Shown here piece by piece: positions 3,160 through 13,927 of a DNA stretch of 64,000 nt; positions within the stretch are counted from its first letter, which is position 1; each line of letters begins with the position of its first letter. Position numbers and translations under genes: made by a program. The DNA is from Paramagnetospirillum caucaseum. Its GTDB lineage: Bacteria > Pseudomonadota > Alphaproteobacteria > Rhodospirillales > Magnetospirillaceae. The notes beneath the pieces are model-generated. The model was not told the DNA's origin. It saw nothing but the letters and a program-made list of their open reading frames with translations, and ran no database searches. Location of the stretch: contig NZ_AONQ01000001.1 of the NCBI RefSeq assembly GCF_000342045.1, forward strand, positions 124,001 to 188,000, given 5' to 3'.

Positions 3160-3262
3160 AAAAATTGTTTCGGAAAAAATCTGATTGCCTCCGTCTTATG
3201 GATTAACGAATCACCCATGCTATCGTTTCGTGCGGTGGATCGATCCAGACGGGGGTATGGGT
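3160..3262 (+). promoter_or_regulatory. duplicated upstream module A (candidate ECF-type promoter)
   Basis: This segment is repeated in front of the caspase-like gene (8890-8988). Shared parts are an A-rich stretch (AAAAATT then AAAAAATC), CCGTCTTATGG (3191-3201), TAAC (3204-3207), CCATGCTATCGTTTCG (3215-3230), ATCCAGA and GGGG before the start codon. TAAC, then 16 bases, then CGTT resembles the -35/-10 layout of extracytoplasmic-function sigma promoters (AAC and CGTT type). The homology continues into the first codons (ATGGNNATGTTC). The promoter reading is inference. The duplication is direct observation. Confidence 0.6.
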
Positions 3263-4867
3263 ATGTTCTTCACACGGAAGACGGTTGGGCTGGCGGTTGG
3301 CATTCTTGCCCTGAGTGGAATTGCCCTTGCTGCTCCCGAGTCCAACCCCATCCCCTCCATGGAACTGGCTCGGAGCCTGATCGACGCAGAACAGTTCGAG
3401 CAGGCTGTCGCCATCCTCAAGCAACTCGATGCCGGTGAGGCCAGCACTTCCGCCCAGATCGACCTTCTGTTCGGACGCATCTACCTCTCCATCGGCAAAC
3501 CGGCCAAGGCTCTGGGGTTCTTTGAGGAGGCGTCTTTCGCGTCCCTGGACGGGGAAGCCGAAGCCTATCTGGGATTGGCCGAAGCCGATCTCGCCCTTGG
3601 TGATCTTGCCAAGGCCCGGCGCAATGCGACCCTGGCGTTAAAAAGCGATCCCGATCTGATCGCTGCCCATCTGGTGCTGGCCCGCGCCGATCAACGCATT
3701 GGCAAAGCTGCCGAAGCTGCCACCCGATTGCGCCAACTCCAACGGGACCGCGAGAACTCCGAGGATGTCGCCATCACCCTCGCCCGTTTCCTGGCCCAAC
3801 AGGACGGTCCCACCGCCGGTATCGCGGAACTGGAGCGGTTCGCCCGCCAAGTCCCAACTTCCGCCGGGGCTTACGATGTACTCGGGCAGATGATTTGGGC
3901 AACCGGACGCAAGGCCGAAGCAGTTCAAGCACGAGACACTGCCCGTCAACTCTATCTGGATCGCGGTCAGATCGGTCGTTCCGAAGCCATGGCGGCATGG
4001 ATCAAGGTGGTCGATCCCCAGGGCAAATGGAAAGCCCAAGAGGCGACGGTCGAGGAGCCGAGCAAGCCGATTCCACCAGAGCCTCAAAAGACAATTCCGC
4101 CCAAAGAACCCCCGCCCCCCAAGGCTCAACCTCGGCCACCGGTCGAAGCCGCCCCGGCACCACCACCACCGCCCCGTAAGGTCACCCAGGCGGTGGCCCT
4201 GGCCCAACCCGAGCCGTTCCCCTTCGCCCCCGGCAGCCCGATCCTGACCGGCAGCGGCGTGGTGCTGGAAGGTGGCCGCCAGATCATCACCAATCGGCAT
4301 GTGGTCGAGGGCATCACCACCCTCTATGTGCGCAACGGCACCGGCCATGTCCGCAAGGCCCGCATCGCCAAGGTCTCAAATGAGGATGATCTGGCCCTGC
4401 TGGAAATCGACAAAGCGTTCCCAGAAGGGGCGGTCACCCCGATTGCCGATATCGTCCAACCCACCGCTGGCCGCGCCGCCATCGTCATGGGCTATCCCCT
4501 GATCAGCCTGCTGGGAGACGAGCAACCGGCCCTGACCGAAGGTATCGTCGCCAAGGCCGCCGGGTTGGGCAATGACCCCAACACATTCCAGATGACCACC
4601 AAGATCAACAAGGGCAATTCCGGCGGCCCGGTATTCGACAAGCGCGGCCATCTGCTGGGCGTGGCGGTCGGCAAGACCGACAGTGCCGCCGTCTATCAGA
4701 AGACCGGCACCCAGATGGAAGACATGAATATCGGCATCAAGGGTGGACGCATCCTGGCCTTCCTGGGCAAGACCGCCGCCGCCGTATCCACCCCGCCCGA
4801 AATGAGTCTGGAAGACCTGTATCAGCAGATGCTTCCCCGCGCCGTTCTGATCGTCGGGCAGAAGTGA
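3257..4867 (+). CDS. exported TPR/trypsin-like serine protease
   Basis: A 536-residue protein in three parts. A signal peptide (MGMFFTRKTVGLAVGIL...ALAAPES) is followed by TPR-like helical repeats (about residues 30-250), a Pro-rich linker (about 260-310) and a trypsin-like domain of the HtrA/S1C type. The triad is visible: His348 in TNRHVV, Asp378 in EDDLALL and Ser455 in KGNSGGP. No PDZ domain follows. The frame is open to 3185, but the start at 3257 gives the signal peptide, and the same position is conserved in the duplicated module at 8983. It heads a coupled operon (one base to the next gene). It probably acts in the periplasm as a protease or protease-sensor. The substrate is unknown. 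Confidence 0.85.
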   Translation: MGMFFTRKTVGLAVGILALSGIALAAPESNPIPSMELARSLIDAEQFEQAVAILKQLDAGEASTSAQIDLLFGRIYLSIGKPAKALGFFEEASFASLDGEAEAYLGLAEADLALGDLAKARRNATLALKSDPDLIAAHLVLARADQRIGKAAEAATRLRQLQRDRENSEDVAITLARFLAQQDGPTAGIAELERFARQVPTSAGAYDVLGQMIWATGRKAEAVQARDTARQLYLDRGQIGRSEAMAAWIKVVDPQGKWKAQEATVEEPSKPIPPEPQKTIPPKEPPPPKAQPRPPVEAAPAPPPPPRKVTQAVALAQPEPFPFAPGSPILTGSGVVLEGGRQIITNRHVVEGITTLYVRNGTGHVRKARIAKVSNEDDLALLEIDKAFPEGAVTPIADIVQPTAGRAAIVMGYPLISLLGDEQPALTEGIVAKAAGLGNDPNTFQMTTKINKGNSGGPVFDKRGHLLGVAVGKTDSAAVYQKTGTQMEDMNIGIKGGRILAFLGKTAAAVSTPPEMSLEDLYQQMLPRAVLIVGQK

Positions 4868-4868
4868 G

Positions 4869-5684
4869 ATGAAGAAGAGCGTCCTCATCATCGGCCTGAT
4901 CGCCCTTCCGCCTCAGTCGGCCTCCGCCGAATGGGTGCGGGCCTCCGGCAGCTACATCTTCCCGCCGGTGATGACCGAGGCCGAAGCCTGCCAGCAGGCG
5001 GAAACCCGCGCCCGCGCCGATGCCGTGCGTCAGGTGACCGGGGAAACCCTGTCGTCGGAAGAGGCCATGCGCTGCACCGAGCAGGGCGACGAAGCCGAAT
5101 GCGCCCGCAATTCGACGGTCTGGACCATGGTGGGTGGCGACATCCGCTCCATCCGCGACCGCAAGGTCGAAACCATGGTCGAGGTTGAAACCTTCCGCAA
5201 ATGCGTGGTGTCGTTTGAGGCCGATGTTCATGTGGCCGAGGGTAGGCCCGACCCCAATTTCGATGTCGGCGTGGCACTCAACAACACGGTCTATCGCGAC
5301 GGCGAGAATCTGAACGTCACCCTGAAGCCGTCCCAGCCCATGGCGGTGCAAATTTTCCAGTGGCTGCCCTATGAAAAGGGCGACACCCAGGTAGGGCGCA
5401 TCTTCCCGAACCAATTCGACGCAGCCGACCGCATCGCCAAATCGGTCACCATTCCCACCGAGGCCGGTGCCAAACGCTACGATCTGAAGGTGAGCTTCCC
5501 CTCCGGTCAGCCATCGAGCCGCAAGATGGTGGACGAATACCTGATGGTGGTCGCCACCAAGAAGCCCATGGCGCTGCGCGACAGCTATTCCTTGGACGAC
5601 TTCAACCGGGTGGTGGCCGAGATTCCCCAGGGGGATCGCCGCATCGTGCGTCGGCTCTACAATATCGTGCGGGGGACCGAATGA
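4869..5684 (+). CDS. exported FlgT-N-like / DUF4384-like protein
   Basis: A 271-residue protein with a signal peptide (MKKSVLIIGLIALPPQSASA). Residues about 22-115 (EWVRASGSYIFPP, then A-rich helix and a VEVETF strand) resemble the N-terminal domain of FlgT and LPP20-type envelope proteins. Residues about 125-230 (YRDGENLNVTLKPSQPMAV, with VGRIFPN) resemble the DUF4384 beta-domain often found with caspase-like proteins. Both assignments are from pattern only. It lies one base after the protease gene and overlaps the next gene by four bases (ATGA), so all are translated together. It probably sits in the periplasm and contributes binding or assembly rather than catalysis. Confidence 0.7.
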   Translation: MKKSVLIIGLIALPPQSASAEWVRASGSYIFPPVMTEAEACQQAETRARADAVRQVTGETLSSEEAMRCTEQGDEAECARNSTVWTMVGGDIRSIRDRKVETMVEVETFRKCVVSFEADVHVAEGRPDPNFDVGVALNNTVYRDGENLNVTLKPSQPMAVQIFQWLPYEKGDTQVGRIFPNQFDAADRIAKSVTIPTEAGAKRYDLKVSFPSGQPSSRKMVDEYLMVVATKKPMALRDSYSLDDFNRVVAEIPQGDRRIVRRLYNIVRGTE

Positions 5685-6919
5685 GCGCCGCCCGCACCCT
5701 GCCGGTCGTTCTCGCCCTGGCCGCCGCCACCGGCTGCGCCAGTCCCACCTACGTCAACAAAGGTGCTGACGAAATTGGCTGGCTGGGCATGAACGAGGTC
5801 ACCTTCCAGGTCCACGATTCTTACAAGGCCAATCCGCCCGATTGCGTCGCCATCCTGCCGCTGACCATCAAAACGCCGTCCCAGCCCATGGCAACCCCCG
5901 AGGATGCCGCTAAGGTTCGGCTATCGCTCTATGCCCACCTCTCCATCCAATCCAAGCGCGGGGTTCGGTTGAAACGGATCGACCATGTGCTGGATCAGGT
6001 CAAGGGCAACCGCAAGGCGCTGGCCGAGCAGATCAAGTGCGGCACCATCCTGGAAGGCGAGATCACCGAATATGGCACCACCTTCCTCGCCCTGTATTCC
6101 CGCGTTGCTGTTGGGGTCGATCTGAAGATGGTTCGCGCCGCCGATGGCATGGTGTTGTGGGAAGGCCATCACACTGCCGCCAGCCATGGCGGCTCCATCC
6201 CCCTCGATCCGGTCGGTGTCGCCATGGGGGTGCTTGATGCCGCCAGCAACATCCGTGACGAACAGATTTTGCGGGTGACCGATGATCTTGCCCGCCGTCT
6301 GGTCTCTACCATTCCCGACAACGCTGTGGTGGCGCTGGATGACCCGGTGAACGAGCCGCCGAAGCCGATCCAGCAAGCTGCCCTGGTCGATGATCTGGCA
6401 ATGGCGGAACGGCTGCTGGCCGAAGGCGATCATGCCGGTGCCTTGGCCGCTGCTGATCATGTCCTGGCCGCCGATCCCAACCGGTCGGGGGCTTGGTTCC
6501 TCAAGGGCCGGGTGCTGATGCTGGATCAGGATTACACCCAGGCAGAACCCGCCATCCTGAAGGCGGTGGCGTTGGATCGTGGCAATACCCGATACCTGAA
6601 CGCCCTGGGGGCGGTGAATGCCGCCAAAGGGGCGAATGACCGGGCGCTGGCCGCCTATGGCATGGCGATCTCCGCCGATTCGGCCAACGGCTTCGCTTGG
6701 TACAACAGCGCCGTCATCCATTTCAACGCGGGCCATCCGACCGAGGCGGCGGATGCCTTCTATGGCGCGGGATTGGCCTATCTCAAGACCGGCGACTACG
6801 CCAAGGCCGAACGCGCCCTCACCGATCTCAAGGACATCGCCCAATCCGGCGTCCCGGTGCAGTCCAAGATCAGGACCATCGAGGGTGCCCTTACCGATCT
6901 GACCAGGAGGAAGACATGA
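5681..6919 (+). CDS. GNA1162/DUF799-like lipoprotein with TPR repeats
   Basis: A 412-residue predicted lipoprotein. The N-terminus ends in a lipobox-like LAAATGC with Cys at about residue 19. Residues about 30-215 resemble the GNA1162/DUF799 (CsgG-related) lipoprotein fold: a CVAILPLTIK strand, CGTILEGEITEYG, and a VGVDLKMV...VLWEGHH segment. Residues about 230-400 contain TPR-like repeats (AGALAAADHVLAADPN, AEPAILKAVALDRGN, AYGMAISADS). It is likely anchored in the outer membrane or periplasmic face. It overlaps its upstream neighbour (ATGA at 5681) and downstream neighbour (ATGA at 6916). Fusion of this domain to TPRs suggests a docking scaffold for the operon's other products. Confidence 0.75.
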   Translation: MSAARTLPVVLALAAATGCASPTYVNKGADEIGWLGMNEVTFQVHDSYKANPPDCVAILPLTIKTPSQPMATPEDAAKVRLSLYAHLSIQSKRGVRLKRIDHVLDQVKGNRKALAEQIKCGTILEGEITEYGTTFLALYSRVAVGVDLKMVRAADGMVLWEGHHTAASHGGSIPLDPVGVAMGVLDAASNIRDEQILRVTDDLARRLVSTIPDNAVVALDDPVNEPPKPIQQAALVDDLAMAERLLAEGDHAGALAAADHVLAADPNRSGAWFLKGRVLMLDQDYTQAEPAILKAVALDRGNTRYLNALGAVNAAKGANDRALAAYGMAISADSANGFAWYNSAVIHFNAGHPTEAADAFYGAGLAYLKTGDYAKAERALTDLKDIAQSGVPVQSKIRTIEGALTDLTRRKT

Positions 6920-8889: not shown

Positions 8890-8988
8890 GAAAAATTCTT
8901 GGCAAAAATCCTTCCCACGTCCGTCTTATGGCCTAACAGGTGGCCATGCTATCGTTTCGGGCAGGAGGCTATCCAGAGGGGAATGGAA
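8890..8988 (+). promoter_or_regulatory. duplicated upstream module B (candidate ECF-type promoter)
   Basis: Homologue of the module at 3160-3262. It has AAAAATT and AAAAATC tracts, CCGTCTTATGG (8921-8931), CTAAC (8933-8937), CCATGCTATCGTTTCG (8944-8959), ATCCAGAGGGG and ATGGAAATGTTC. The TAAC-to-CGTT spacing is 15 bases here and 16 in module A. Preservation of the two core words while the spacing and flanks diverge suggests functional constraint by a common regulator. Confidence 0.6.
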
Positions 8989-9081
8989 ATGTTCAATATA
9001 CGCAAGGCTGGCCGTATTGTCAGGGTAAATACCGACCTCAAAGAGAGACTTATGTTCAATGCTTGGGCGGAAAGGGGATAG
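8983..9081 (+). CDS. possible 32-residue leader ORF before the caspase-like gene
   Basis: An ATG at 8983, in the same position of the duplicated module as the start of the protease gene at 3257, opens a 32-codon frame (MEMFNIRKAGRIVRV...AWAERG). It ends five bases before the ATG of the SEL1/caspase gene. The first residues (MEMFNIRK) match the protease N-terminus (MGMFFTRK). It could be a coupling leader or a relic of the duplicated gene start. It lacks a signal peptide. Confidence 0.4.
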   Translation: MEMFNIRKAGRIVRVNTDLKERLMFNAWAERG

Positions 9082-9085
9082 CGCA

Positions 9086-11146
9086 ATGGGACCGGTGACG
9101 AAGTTGTCGGCGATGGCTGCCGCCGTGCTCCTATGCCTGACCGCGATGGCATCGGCCCAGTCAGTTGAGGATGCAGTGGCCGCCTCTTCGCGCGGTGATT
9201 ATACGACGGCTCTCAGTGTTCTACGGTCACTGGCTGAGCAGGGAAATACCGAGGCGCAGAGTATCCTTGGAGCCTACTACGCTAACGGTCTGGGAGTTTC
9301 CCAGGATTACGCCGAGGCTATGCGCTGGTATCGCAAGGCAGCTGAGCAGGGAAATACCATGGCGCAGGTCGACCTTGGAAACGGGTACGCTAGCGGCTCA
9401 GGAGTCCCCAAAAATTTTACCGAGGCTTATAAGTGGTATCGGAGAGCAGCAGAACAAGGAATTGCGGCAGCCCAATTCAATCTCGGAATTTTGCTCGCTT
9501 GGGACCAAGGAACACCTCAGGAACACATTGAAGCAGTCAGTTGGTTCCGCAAAGCAGCCAGCCAGGGGCTTGCTCATGCTCAATACAGCCTAGGTCAAAT
9601 GTACGCCATTGGCCGAGGCGTTCCCCAGGACTTTGCCGAAACTGTTAAATGGTATCGCAAAGCCGCTGAACAGGGGCTTGTCGAGGCGCAAGGTAGCCTT
9701 GGAGCCATGTACGCCCTGGGTAAAGGAACAACCCAGGATTACGCCGAAAGTGTTAAATGGTACCGCAAAGCCGCTGAACAGGGGTTCGTGGACGCCCAAC
9801 TCAGCCTCGGTCAAATGTACGCCTTTGGCGGAGCCATTCCCCAAGATTTTGTGCTGGCTCATATGTGGTTCAACCTTGCCGCAGCTAATGGCAATCAAGA
9901 AGCGGTAAAGAATAGGGATCATACAGCCAAATTCATGAACCCAGCCCAGTTGACCGAGGCCCAGAAGCTTGCCCGGGAGTGGAAGCCAAAAACCCTATCT
10001 GGCCCTTGGGAAAAATTCGCCCAAGCTGGAGCCGCCAATCCTTTCGATCAGTTCGACCCTCCGAAAGTTGCTGCCCCTCCCAAAGCCCACGCTGGAGCAG
10101 CCCCAACTCTATCGGTCAAGCCTGTTGCCACAACCCCATCCTCCACCATCGATGTGGCCGGGAACGTTTCCAGCAAGGGGCGGATCACCTCCCTCCAGAT
10201 CGATGGCACGGATGTGCCTCTTCAGTCCGGTGGCGGGTTCTCCGTGCGCCGGGGCATTCCTTTGGGGGAGAGCGTAATCCGACTGGTTGCGACTGACGAG
10301 TGGGGGCAGTCAGCCGAAGCCACAGTGAAGGTGACGCGTATCACCGCGTCCACTGAAACGACGCTGGCAAGATTGTCTCCAGGTCACCTCAACGGCAAGT
10401 CTCGCCCCAACGCCATCGCCCTAATTATCGGCATCGAGCATTACAAGAGCGCCCCGCCCGCCGAATTCGCCGAAAACGACGCCCGCCGGTTCTACGACTA
10501 CGCCACCAGTGCCCTGGGGGTTCCGGCGTCGCGGGTCAAGCTGCTGACTGGAGCCGATGCTCAGCGGGTGGATGTGGAGGCCGCCATTCTGACATGGCTG
10601 AAGCCGCAGGTGGTCAGGGGCCAGACCGAGGTGTTCCTCTTCTTCTCCGGCCATGGCCTCGCTTCCGACGACGGCAAGGATTTGTACCTGCTGCCCCAGG
10701 ACGGCAATCGCGCGCTGCTGGATCGCTCTGCCCTGCGCCGCAAGGAACTGATCGACATGATCGTGGACAGTGGGGCTAAATCGGCCACCTTGTTCCTCGA
10801 CACCTGCTATTCCGGCGGAACGCGGGGCAAGGAGACTCTGGTTTCCTCCGCTCGTCCGATCCTGGTGGCGGCCAAGGAGCAGACGGTGCCTGCCAATGTC
10901 ACGATCCTGGCCGCAGCCGGGAACGACCAGTTGTCCAGTTCGCTGACCCAGGCCAAGCATGGGCTGTTCAGCTACTTCCTGATGAAGGGCCTGGAGGGCG
11001 ACGCCGCCGGTCCCGACCGAACCATCACCGCCGCCAAGCTGGAAGCCTATCTTGCCGAGAAGATTCCCGCCGAGGCCGCCAAGCTGGGCCGCACCCAGAC
11101 GCCTCAGTTGATCGGCGACGGTAATCGGGTGGTCTCATCATGGTGA
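9086..11146 (+). CDS. exported SEL1-repeat / caspase-like (C14) protease
   Basis: A 686-residue protein. A signal peptide (MGPVTKLSAMAAAVLL...AMASAQ) is followed by about seven SEL1 repeats of 36 residues (about 45-285, with KWYRKAAEQG units). A linker and a beta-sandwich or Ig-like segment (about 350-425, VAGNVSSKGRITSLQIDG) come next, then a caspase-like p20 domain from about 440. The catalytic dyad is visible: His523 in FFSGHG and Cys574 in LDTCYSG. SEL1 repeats usually bind partner proteins. The start at 9086 gives the signal peptide. The frame shares its control module with the trypsin-like operon. It is probably a periplasmic effector protease, and its specificity and trigger are unknown. 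Confidence 0.88.
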   Translation: MGPVTKLSAMAAAVLLCLTAMASAQSVEDAVAASSRGDYTTALSVLRSLAEQGNTEAQSILGAYYANGLGVSQDYAEAMRWYRKAAEQGNTMAQVDLGNGYASGSGVPKNFTEAYKWYRRAAEQGIAAAQFNLGILLAWDQGTPQEHIEAVSWFRKAASQGLAHAQYSLGQMYAIGRGVPQDFAETVKWYRKAAEQGLVEAQGSLGAMYALGKGTTQDYAESVKWYRKAAEQGFVDAQLSLGQMYAFGGAIPQDFVLAHMWFNLAAANGNQEAVKNRDHTAKFMNPAQLTEAQKLAREWKPKTLSGPWEKFAQAGAANPFDQFDPPKVAAPPKAHAGAAPTLSVKPVATTPSSTIDVAGNVSSKGRITSLQIDGTDVPLQSGGGFSVRRGIPLGESVIRLVATDEWGQSAEATVKVTRITASTETTLARLSPGHLNGKSRPNAIALIIGIEHYKSAPPAEFAENDARRFYDYATSALGVPASRVKLLTGADAQRVDVEAAILTWLKPQVVRGQTEVFLFFSGHGLASDDGKDLYLLPQDGNRALLDRSALRRKELIDMIVDSGAKSATLFLDTCYSGGTRGKETLVSSARPILVAAKEQTVPANVTILAAAGNDQLSSSLTQAKHGLFSYFLMKGLEGDAAGPDRTITAAKLEAYLAEKIPAEAAKLGRTQTPQLIGDGNRVVSSW

Positions 11147-11638: not shown

Positions 11639-12223
11639 CTATTGGCCCGGCCTGTTCACCAGTATGCCTTGATTGTTCGCAAGATTCTGCTGTGGGGATA
11701 GCGCCGTTGAATGCGCTCCGTGCTCTCGCCAATTCGCTCTGTACCGATGGGCTAACGCATTGTCGCTGATTACCAACACATTCTCCGCATTCCGGTCCTG
11801 GGCAGCTTGGCTGAAGTTAAATGACCCGGTAATAACTCGGCTCTGGTCGATGACCATGATCTTGTTGTGGGCGATGGCATGGGCGCGGTCGATGAAGACG
11901 GGGACCCCAGCCTCTTTCAGGGCTTTGGCCGCCAAAGCCCCTTTCTTCTCGCATTCACCCCGGTCCTTGCAGACGTTGCTCTTGTCCAGAATCACCTGGA
12001 CATCGACGCCGCGGCGCTTGGCATCGGCCAATGCCGTCACGATATCGGGGCTGGTGAACGAATATGCCTGGACCAGCACTTGACGCCGGGCACTGGCGAT
12101 CTGATCCACGATCAGGTCAGTGCAGGCCTCGCCGGGGGTGAAGCAGACGCCAATGATCTCGGTCGCTGCGGCAGGAGATGCCGACAAGCTCAGGATCATT
12201 GCGAAAAGGACGCTATGCTTCAC
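11639..12223 (-). CDS. exported PLD-family (HKD) nuclease-like protein
   Basis: A 194-residue protein with a signal peptide (MKHSVLFAMILSLSASPAAA). It has a single phospholipase-D motif: HNKIMVID followed by GSFNFS (H-x-K-x4-D then G-S-x-N). One HKD motif per chain, an N-terminal export signal and about 190 residues match the Nuc-type endonuclease group, which work as dimers. It is therefore probably periplasmic and acts on nucleic acid, although a phospholipid substrate cannot be excluded. It ends five bases after the converging membrane-protein gene and shares its strand with the sigma/anti-sigma pair. Defence against incoming DNA or a lethal effector role are both possible. Confidence 0.82.
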   Translation of the reverse strand: MKHSVLFAMILSLSASPAAATEIIGVCFTPGEACTDLIVDQIASARRQVLVQAYSFTSPDIVTALADAKRRGVDVQVILDKSNVCKDRGECEKKGALAAKALKEAGVPVFIDRAHAIAHNKIMVIDQSRVITGSFNFSQAAQDRNAENVLVISDNALAHRYRANWREHGAHSTALSPQQNLANNQGILVNRPGQ

Positions 12224-12297: not shown

Positions 12298-13017
12298 TTA
12301 GCGGACAGAAGGCTTCGGCCCAGGCATGACGTCACCCCCTTCGGGGGCGACCTGCGGCATGCTCCTCGTGGCTGACGGCGGAGGCATGGTTTCCTGGGAT
12401 GCTGCCGGAGCCAGATAGGTCGGAGCCGTCTTCTCTCCGGCCACCACCGGGGGAGGCATGCTTTCCCCTTGGCGGGGTTGAGGCTGGGCAAGCCTGGGGC
12501 CATCAGCGGGCGCAACAGGTGTTGGAGCAGACTTGGCGGTAACCGGCTGGGTGGTGTCGGTCGGAGGGGCGGTGCGGCTGACGATAACCAACACGGCCAA
12601 GGCGGCAACCGTCACAGCCAGCGCGACTCCCGACCATTTCCAGATTGGGAATGACCGACGTGGTGACGACGGCAATATCGCCGCCGGTCGGCTCATGGCG
12701 ATGGTGGATGCCACCAAGTCAGCAGGGGCAGCGTCCCGTGATGTCGCCACGTTTTCCAGGAACGCATCGGCGCTGGCAAGGTCGTGCAAGGCAGCAGCCG
12801 ATTGCGACAGGCGAGCATGAAGGTCGTTCTGCTTGGCTTCGTCCAAGCCACCATCCATATAGGCGACCAGTTGGACAACATCCAGCGTGTCCGATTCGCC
12901 GTGATCCAGATCGGCGGCAAGGTGGGCGACTTGGCGTGGATGGGCAGCATTGTCCGCCACATTGTCGGCATCGCCGAAAAGCCGCTCGAACAGCGCATGA
13001 AGGGTGCCGGGGGTCAC
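12298..13017 (-). CDS. anti-sigma-factor-like membrane protein
   Basis: A 239-residue protein with a GTG start preceded by GAGGAG. Residues about 45-95 (LVAYMDGGLDEAKQNDLHARL) resemble the anti-sigma helical domain of zf-HC2-type regulators, but the His-x3-Cys-x2-Cys zinc site is absent. A single transmembrane helix (about 126-146, after FPIWKW) is followed by a long Pro/Ala-rich periplasmic tail (to residue 239). It lies 25 bases after the sigma gene, so the pair is cotranscribed. The likely role is to hold the sigma factor at the membrane and release it when the tail senses an envelope signal, perhaps by proteolysis. Confidence 0.7.
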   Translation of the reverse strand: MTPGTLHALFERLFGDADNVADNAAHPRQVAHLAADLDHGESDTLDVVQLVAYMDGGLDEAKQNDLHARLSQSAAALHDLASADAFLENVATSRDAAPADLVASTIAMSRPAAILPSSPRRSFPIWKWSGVALAVTVAALAVLVIVSRTAPPTDTTQPVTAKSAPTPVAPADGPRLAQPQPRQGESMPPPVVAGEKTAPTYLAPAASQETMPPPSATRSMPQVAPEGGDVMPGPKPSVR

Positions 13018-13042
13018 GGTCTGATGTCTCCTCGCTGAACCA

Positions 13043-13927
13043 TTAGACGGACGCCTTCCACATTTTGACCGCTGGATGTTTGTCCAGGGTTTCCCGCAGC
13101 CGGGCCATGACCCGCTGCTTCAACTTGTAGACCTCCTCCACCGGGCGACGCATCTGACGCGCCACCTCCCGCGCCGGGATAGGTTCGCCGCTGCCCAATG
13201 CGATGTGCAGGTATAGGCGCTCCGTCTCGGAAAGGGCGGCGGCGGCCTCCCGCAGAACCTCGGATGCCAACGACAACAGGCGGTCCCCTTCCTGCTCCAA
13301 CAGGGCATCTTCCGGCGATGGCTGGTCCGAGGGGATGTCCTCCCATTCCGTTGTCTGGGCCTCGGTTCTTTGCCGCCCCAGCGGCATGGTGCTGCGGATG
13401 AAGTCGATCAACAGCCGATCAACCATCTGCAACACGAAGCCGGTGAAGCTGCCAATGCCGCGATACGCCTTCAGCCGCCGGTAATCATCGGCAATCAAGG
13501 CCACGCAGATGTCCTGGTAGGCATCCTGGCGTAAATCCGCACGATCTGCTCCGGGAAGGCGGCGGTTGATGATGCGGTTGATGTCGGCGGCGAAGAACCG
13601 CTCGAACGCGGCCCAGCCATCGGACGCAGAATGGACATTGAACAGGCGCAACAGCCGCTCGGCCAGCACATCCCTGGTCACCAGGGCGACGAAGGTCTCG
13701 ATCCTGCTGGACCCGTTATAGGCTCGCAGCCGCCGAAATCCATCGGCGCGAAGGCCGTCCATGACATCCGAAAAGGCGGCGCGGGAATCGGCGTCGTCAC
13801 CACAGAGCAATCGGCAGGCTGTCCAGACCGTATCGGCAATGCGGCGCACAAGCCTGTCCCAAGCCAGCGGCTTGGCATCCAGGACATCACGGACAAGGGC
13901 GCGATTTTCGACGGTGTGAATGGTCAT
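13043..13927 (-). CDS. sigma factor with tandem sigma2-like regions
   Basis: A 294-residue protein resembling ECF-type sigma factors, but with the sigma2 region apparently duplicated. Residues about 23-96 and 105-178 align, most clearly FRRLRAYNGSSRIETFV (64-80) with YRRLKAYRGIGSFTGFV (149-165). A C-terminal sigma4-like helix-turn-helix (about 228-280, LSETERLYLHIAL, EVARQMRRPVEEVYKLKQ) follows. Typical ECF factors are about 170-200 residues, so the extra 90 or so are explained by the second copy. It is followed by a membrane anti-sigma-like gene. The two duplicated modules at 3160 and 8890 are the obvious candidate targets. The ribosome site before the ATG is weak. Confidence 0.78.
   Translation of the reverse strand: MTIHTVENRALVRDVLDAKPLAWDRLVRRIADTVWTACRLLCGDDADSRAAFSDVMDGLRADGFRRLRAYNGSSRIETFVALVTRDVLAERLLRLFNVHSASDGWAAFERFFAADINRIINRRLPGADRADLRQDAYQDICVALIADDYRRLKAYRGIGSFTGFVLQMVDRLLIDFIRSTMPLGRQRTEAQTTEWEDIPSDQPSPEDALLEQEGDRLLSLASEVLREAAAALSETERLYLHIALGSGEPIPAREVARQMRRPVEEVYKLKQRVMARLRETLDKHPAVKMWKASV

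Follow-up and report, generated by a model that had tools for sequence, protein, structure and literature searches.

The 294-residue protein encoded on the minus strand at positions 13043-13927 carries two sigma2 folds in tandem (positions are those of the window, the whole 64-kb stretch of DNA analyzed here). ECF sigma factors have one sigma2 and one sigma4, and the presence of two sigma2 folds instead of one makes this protein an atypical variant of the ECF type (sigma70 group IV). Our explanation as a whole, an ECF-type sigma factor with a tandem sigma2 duplication together with the mechanism proposed below, is one that we favor with somewhat better than even confidence.

Two sigma2 folds in one chain

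Routine annotation of this protein would give one sigma2 and one sigma4 and leave the N-terminal half unexplained. The NCBIfam model TIGR02937 (sigma70-ECF) matched residues 114-281 with 50.0 bits against a cut-off of 42.9, as it matched all 14 aligned relatives (E <= 1), and Pfam placed a weak Sigma70_r2 at residues 130-179 and Sigma70_r4 at residues 230-279. Pfam detected no receiver domain in the sigma protein. Residues 1-108 submitted alone had no Pfam match, so that profile-profile and structure comparisons were needed.

Relatives were gathered at each rank from genus up to phylum, and 14 of them were aligned; the yardstick was a set of 20 ordinary ECF proteins encoded in genomes of that order. 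With hhalign, the alignments of the two halves matched each other at P = 1.5e-8, and against the 20 genomic ECF sigma2 domains the first half scored P 1.1e-5 and the second P 3.7e-6. The best of 60 column-shuffled first halves reached P 0.022 against the second half and 0.0022 against the ECF sigma2 domains, and all sigma2-sigma4 cross comparisons gave P 0.19 or worse. The repeat is real and well beyond chance. By profile and by structure the protein has sigma4 as well as sigma2 domains: its sigma4 domain matched ECF sigma4 at P 5.2e-8 (hhalign) and residues 214-289 of the model superimposed on 2h27_A (Z 9.2, rmsd 2.5 over 71).

The AlphaFold model of the 294-residue protein (mean pLDDT 82.5) has the same helix layout in residues 5-98 and 101-180. 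Its residues 6-101 superimposed on region 2 of E. coli sigmaE with -10 DNA (4lup_A) over 91 of 91 residues, with Z 11.3 and an rmsd of 2.2 Å. In the model of a longer relative (pLDDT 83.3), residues 1-97 matched sigmaE (1or7_B; Z 12.2, 2.4 Å over 92) and residues 100-183, taken alone, matched region 2 of M. tuberculosis sigmaL (6tyg_F; Z 9.6, rmsd 1.9 Å, 74 residues). For all-helical structures, matches at Z 9-12 could arise from a shared bundle arrangement alone; it is the profile evidence that ties the halves to sigma2, and the Pfam model Sigma70_r2 reached 36 bits in relative L015. A Foldseek search with the whole model ranked sigma factors at the top; owing to the different arrangement of domains, none came in at E <= 0.001. 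The blanks from Pfam and Foldseek might be read as the sign of an unrelated helical domain in the N-terminal half that resembles sigma2 by chance, but this is very improbable given the match of that half to independent ECF sigma2 domains and to the second half with clean controls, its complete superposition on sigmaE region 2 and its grouping with sigma2b in the domain tree described below.

The initial annotation had proposed two tandem sigma2 domains, and the profile P values, the comparison of AlphaFold models with solved sigma2 structures and the domain tree all agree with it, both halves having turned out to be sigma2 by profile and by structure. The repeat that it had placed at residues 23-96 and 105-178 is upheld with better boundaries, which are given in Table 1 for sigma2a and sigma2b, and RRLRAYNGSSRIETFV (65-80) and RRLKAYRGIGSFTGFV (150-165) are equivalent stretches as it had written. 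The conserved Asp that it had seen after each repeat does not stand, as the positions are not equivalent: D86 pairs with R171, and the invariant D175 of the second repeat pairs with E90, which varies. Its single sigma4 domain holds for the 294-residue protein and fails for the longer relatives, which have a second sigma4-like domain.

Table 1. Features of the sigma factor gene and its neighborhood, in window positions
Feature	Position	Strand	Evidence
Candidate promoter, lipoprotein/protease (TPR-trypsin) operon	3172..3201	+	motif
TPR + Trypsin_2 protease, exported	3257..4867 (start codon 3257 or 3263)	+	Pfam Trypsin_2 3.5e-21; sequence
DUF4384 protein, exported	4869..5684	+	Pfam 9.1e-8
GNA1162-like/TPR lipoprotein	5681..6919	+	Pfam
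Candidate promoter, Sel1-caspase gene	8901..8931	+	motif
Exported Sel1-repeat protein with C-terminal caspase-like domain	9059..11146	+	Sel1 1.7e-55, Peptidase_C14 4.6e-14
Membrane anti-sigma: cytoplasmic N-terminal domain, one TM helix, extracytoplasmic tail	12298..13017	-	orthologue zf-HC2; TM helix read from sequence
Candidate promoter in last codons and stop of sigma gene, before anti-sigma gene (GGTCAAAATGTGGAAGGCGTCCGTCTAATGG)	13040..13070	-	motif
sigma4, residues 213-288	13064..13291	-	hhalign and structural alignment
Linker, residues 183-212, partly disordered	13292..13381	-	pLDDT < 50 at 184-200; alignments
sigma2b, canonical sigma2, residues 99-182	13382..13633	-	hhalign; Sigma70_r2 in relative L015; invariant residues
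sigma2a, N-terminal divergent sigma2 fold, residues 1-98	13634..13927	-	hhalign; AF2 model

Divergence and history of the N-terminal copy

The two copies have diverged unequally. In sigma2b, D135, D175 and R178 are present in 14/14 relatives and Q138 in 13, whereas the DxxQ and DxxR motifs are absent from sigma2a in every one of the 14. The DxxQ stretch is part of region 2.2, through which sigma factors bind the beta' clamp; sigma2b has kept both its core-binding and its -10-region motifs. The reading frame of the sigma2a copy is nevertheless intact throughout the 14 aligned relatives, with identity as low as ~30%, and sigma2a has conserved positions of its own (A22, W23, R29, L67, G72, F79, L82, L88 and R91). 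Its dN/dS was 0.2-0.3, compared with 0.04-0.3 for sigma2b and 0.08-0.2 for sigma4, and in close pairs sigma2a diverges faster than sigma2b (0.2 vs 0.04). sigma2a is thus a degenerate pseudo-sigma2 under purifying selection, and we infer that it has a regulatory task.

Half of the relatives are longer and have the order sigma2-sigma2-sigma4-sigma4. In these long forms (L012, L013, L015, L043, L048, L051 and L074; 344-393 residues) the extra sigma4-like domain lies between sigma2b and sigma4, at the position that the linker takes in the alignments; it matched ECF sigma4 at P 3.6e-5 (hhalign), and Pfam Sigma70_r4_2 left traces of it in L015 and L043. Three proteins from elsewhere in the phylum (L075-L077) start at sigma2b and have both sigma4-like stretches without sigma2a, suggesting that sigma2b and the last sigma4 form the common core.

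A maximum-likelihood domain tree of 14 sigma2a, 14 sigma2b and 20 ECF sigma2 domains, built from few columns, placed sigma2a and sigma2b together and apart from the ECF domains (branch 99/94), with sigma2a as one clade (98/96) that includes members ~31% identical overall. Small as its number of columns is, the tree supports one old tandem sigma2 duplication that would have occurred early in a small family. The long form could also have arisen by nested insertion of one ECF gene inside the linker of another; the tree favors duplication of sigma2 in place, and in hhalign the two sigma4 domains had no special likeness to each other.

Other relatives were seen in passing. The same genome holds a second one (L002; G000:C75:3-233, minus strand), a sigma2a-like stretch of 77 residues with 39% identity, at a contig end with the rest of the gene off the contig and adjoining a helicase/restriction-like gene. 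A more distant long-form branch (L053, in G158:C49, and L057, in G579) has likewise retained GGNNA-N16-CGTC where the sigma gene ends; L053 lies beside VWA/FHA-type and other genes and L057 is without that context. No relative was found among plasmid records.

Candidate promoters and gene neighborhood

The upstream sequences have in common the element GG-N2-AAA-N12/13-CCGTCTWATGG, that is GGNNA-N15/16-CGTC. ECF promoters have the geometry GGAAC-N16-CGTC, and a motif so spaced may be recognized by the 294-residue sigma factor. Its strict form occurs only three times in the whole 4.86-Mb genome, each time less than 10 kb from the sigma gene (Table 1), and a looser pattern found the same three sites and no others in the genome. 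The reversed control pattern had no match in 17 genomes and dinucleotide shuffles of the window gave 0.01 sites on average. All four short-form genomes have the strict motif, as does one of the 11 genomes of the genus in which no sigma gene was detected, again before the TPR-trypsin gene (G140:C208:11076-11106); there the sigma gene either lies in an assembly gap or was lost. Long-form genomes have a looser version of the motif.

The site on the minus strand (13070-13040) lies ~25 bases before the start of the anti-sigma gene and reads ...GTC AAA ATG TGG AAG GCG TCC GTC TAA TGG within the end of the sigma gene. Such an embedded promoter would account for the Ala-Ser-Val with which nearly all relatives terminate. 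In 14 of 16 loci the sigma gene has CCGTCT (ACCGTCT in one case) at its end, and the occurrence of CGTCCGTCTT there in L043, in another reading frame, suggests selection on the DNA itself. The sites at 3172 and 8901 have an extended 5' sequence in common and are not independent; judging by this likeness, they are probably copies of one promoter. The stretches downstream (3172-3270 and 8901-9010) are also common to both (CATGCTATCGTTTCG...), as if the 5' region of the operon had been copied before the caspase gene.

The targets of an ECF sigma factor usually include its own gene. The 5' region of the sigma gene itself is without the GGNNA-N15/16-CGTC motif. A different upstream element, about TGAACTnnnCTAgtCTT, was seen before the sigma genes of L060, L067 and L068 and, in weaker form, before those of L058, L059 and the window, so that the sigma factor probably does not transcribe its own gene.

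A protein related to the anti-sigma follows the sigma gene directly in most loci. The copy in the window had no Pfam match itself; its orthologue L058 matched zf-HC2 with 22.5 bits (cut-off 22.2). The tail of this protein and of six orthologues (L054, L055, L058, L067, L068 and L069) has two short conserved terminal motifs of the type (E/D)(T/D/V)(M/V/I)(M/V/A)P, for example ASQETMPPP and APEGGDVMPG, at which the exported protease or caspase may bind or cut.

In about half of the loci the cluster includes genes for a TPR-Trypsin_2 protease, a DUF4384 protein, a GNA1162-like TPR lipoprotein, an LPP20 lipoprotein and Sel1-caspase proteins; in the 64-kb window the LPP20 lipoprotein is the sole member of this set that was not seen. 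The Sel1-caspase protein of the window has the SGHG and DTCYSG sequences. A gene for a small exported phospholipase-D-type nuclease (11639-12223) lies between the caspase and anti-sigma genes, and the same was seen in L059. When the region was compared with a defense library, the sigma and anti-sigma proteins had no match and only neighbors did (caspase, DrmC-like PLD and protease).

Possible roles of the extra sigma2 and comparison with known systems

The protein is most likely an envelope-stress sigma factor, which probably switches on a few neighboring cell-envelope protease genes and its own inhibitor. In the mechanism that we propose, sigma2b and sigma4 would form the working sigma factor (-10 CGTCT, -35 GG(Y)CAAAA), held by the membrane anti-sigma until an envelope signal arrives. 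Cleavage or a conformational change of the anti-sigma, probably proteolysis of its tail, would release the sigma factor, which would then transcribe the TPR-trypsin/DUF4384/GNA1162-like operon and the exported Sel1-caspase gene. It would also transcribe its own anti-sigma from the promoter in its own 3' end, which would provide negative feedback. A promoter in the last codons of the sigma gene that appears to fix a C-terminal Ala-Ser-Val would make for a compact feedback design, and three candidate target promoters beside the gene offer a ready test.

As sigma2a is without the core-binding motif, a task in regulation is no less likely for it than the effect on core or -10 binding that the initial annotation had suggested. 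Our preferred reading is that sigma2a acts as an in-cis sigma mimic, either offering the anti-sigma an extra surface or packing on sigma2b or sigma4 and masking them, with binding to core polymerase not being its role. Taken by itself, this predicted role has in our judgment about an even chance of being correct, and we rank it above an additional promoter or core contact and above a functionless relic. A conserved family in which sigma2 was duplicated and one copy lost its core-binding motif would be an example from nature of how a sigma factor can evolve an internal regulator.

Both sigma2 domains could instead take part in initiation, with sigma2b on the beta' clamp and the -10 element and sigma2a on another part of the polymerase or on further promoter DNA (upstream, discriminator or other strand), resulting in an unusual promoter specificity. 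sigma2a does retain the conserved helix-loop-helix that surrounds the -10 recognition loop (RRLRAYNGSSRIETF), together with the full sigma2 fold including the first helix, and the purifying selection on it would fit such a role. This is unlikely, however, as the region 2.2 core-binding motif is lost in all 14 relatives, the net charge of sigma2a is not more positive than that of sigma2b (-3 to +3), and the geometry of the motif, GGNNA-N16-CGTC, is ordinary for an ECF factor with one sigma2. The lost motifs and the faster divergence in close pairs would also be expected if sigma2a were left over from a duplication or gene fusion and now decaying, without present function, but a relic is hard to reconcile with a reading frame kept in every aligned relative, conserved positions of its own and a dN/dS well under 1, and we hold it to be unlikely too. 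It is rather improbable that two sigma2 domains are used at once in a double sigma factor on one chain, for which the long relatives would also have two sigma4 domains; if true, one polymerase would carry two promoter-reading modules.

The protein can be set beside several described systems. Reviews of ECF factors (PMC8103513, PMC8999054) cover split sigma factors, the PhyR mimic and extensions at the C-terminus or, in some factors, at the N-terminus. A tandem or duplicated sigma2 or region 2 was not found in the literature searched, which consisted mostly of open papers and in which ECF groups were compared by description; we thus say of the layout that no described ECF group with it was found, which is a statement about this search. 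N-terminal extensions are described for some ECF groups, namely those of Planctomycetes (former ECF87-89) and ECF36, with DUF2275 and TM helices (PMC8103513, PMC8999054); these are alike in having an N-terminal regulatory extension and differ in that none is described as a sigma2. ECF54 has a CHAT/protease context and is described without an anti-sigma (PMC8103513, PMC8999054); it resembles our case in its nearby protease genes, whereas here an anti-sigma gene adjoins. Split sigma factors, in which one sigma2 and one sigma4 are spread over two proteins (PMC8103513), are alike in their separable modules, but here sigma2 is doubled within one protein.

PhyR, of the PhyR-NepR-EcfG switch of Alphaproteobacteria, has a sigma-like domain that does not work as a sigma factor and acts by mimicry (PMC8999054). 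By analogy, sigma2a would be alike if it engages the anti-sigma as proposed; PhyR, however, is a protein in its own right, a response regulator that has a receiver domain, while here the mimic would be fused before the working sigma factor. ECF group IV itself (E. coli sigmaE, P. aeruginosa AlgU, M. tuberculosis SigL/SigE) corresponds to sigma2b and sigma4, without sigma1.1 or sigma3, and also in the adjoining membrane anti-sigma and the candidate ECF-spaced promoter motif with a CGTC -10 element; the protein studied here differs by the extra divergent sigma2 in front, to which the long relatives add a sigma4-like domain.
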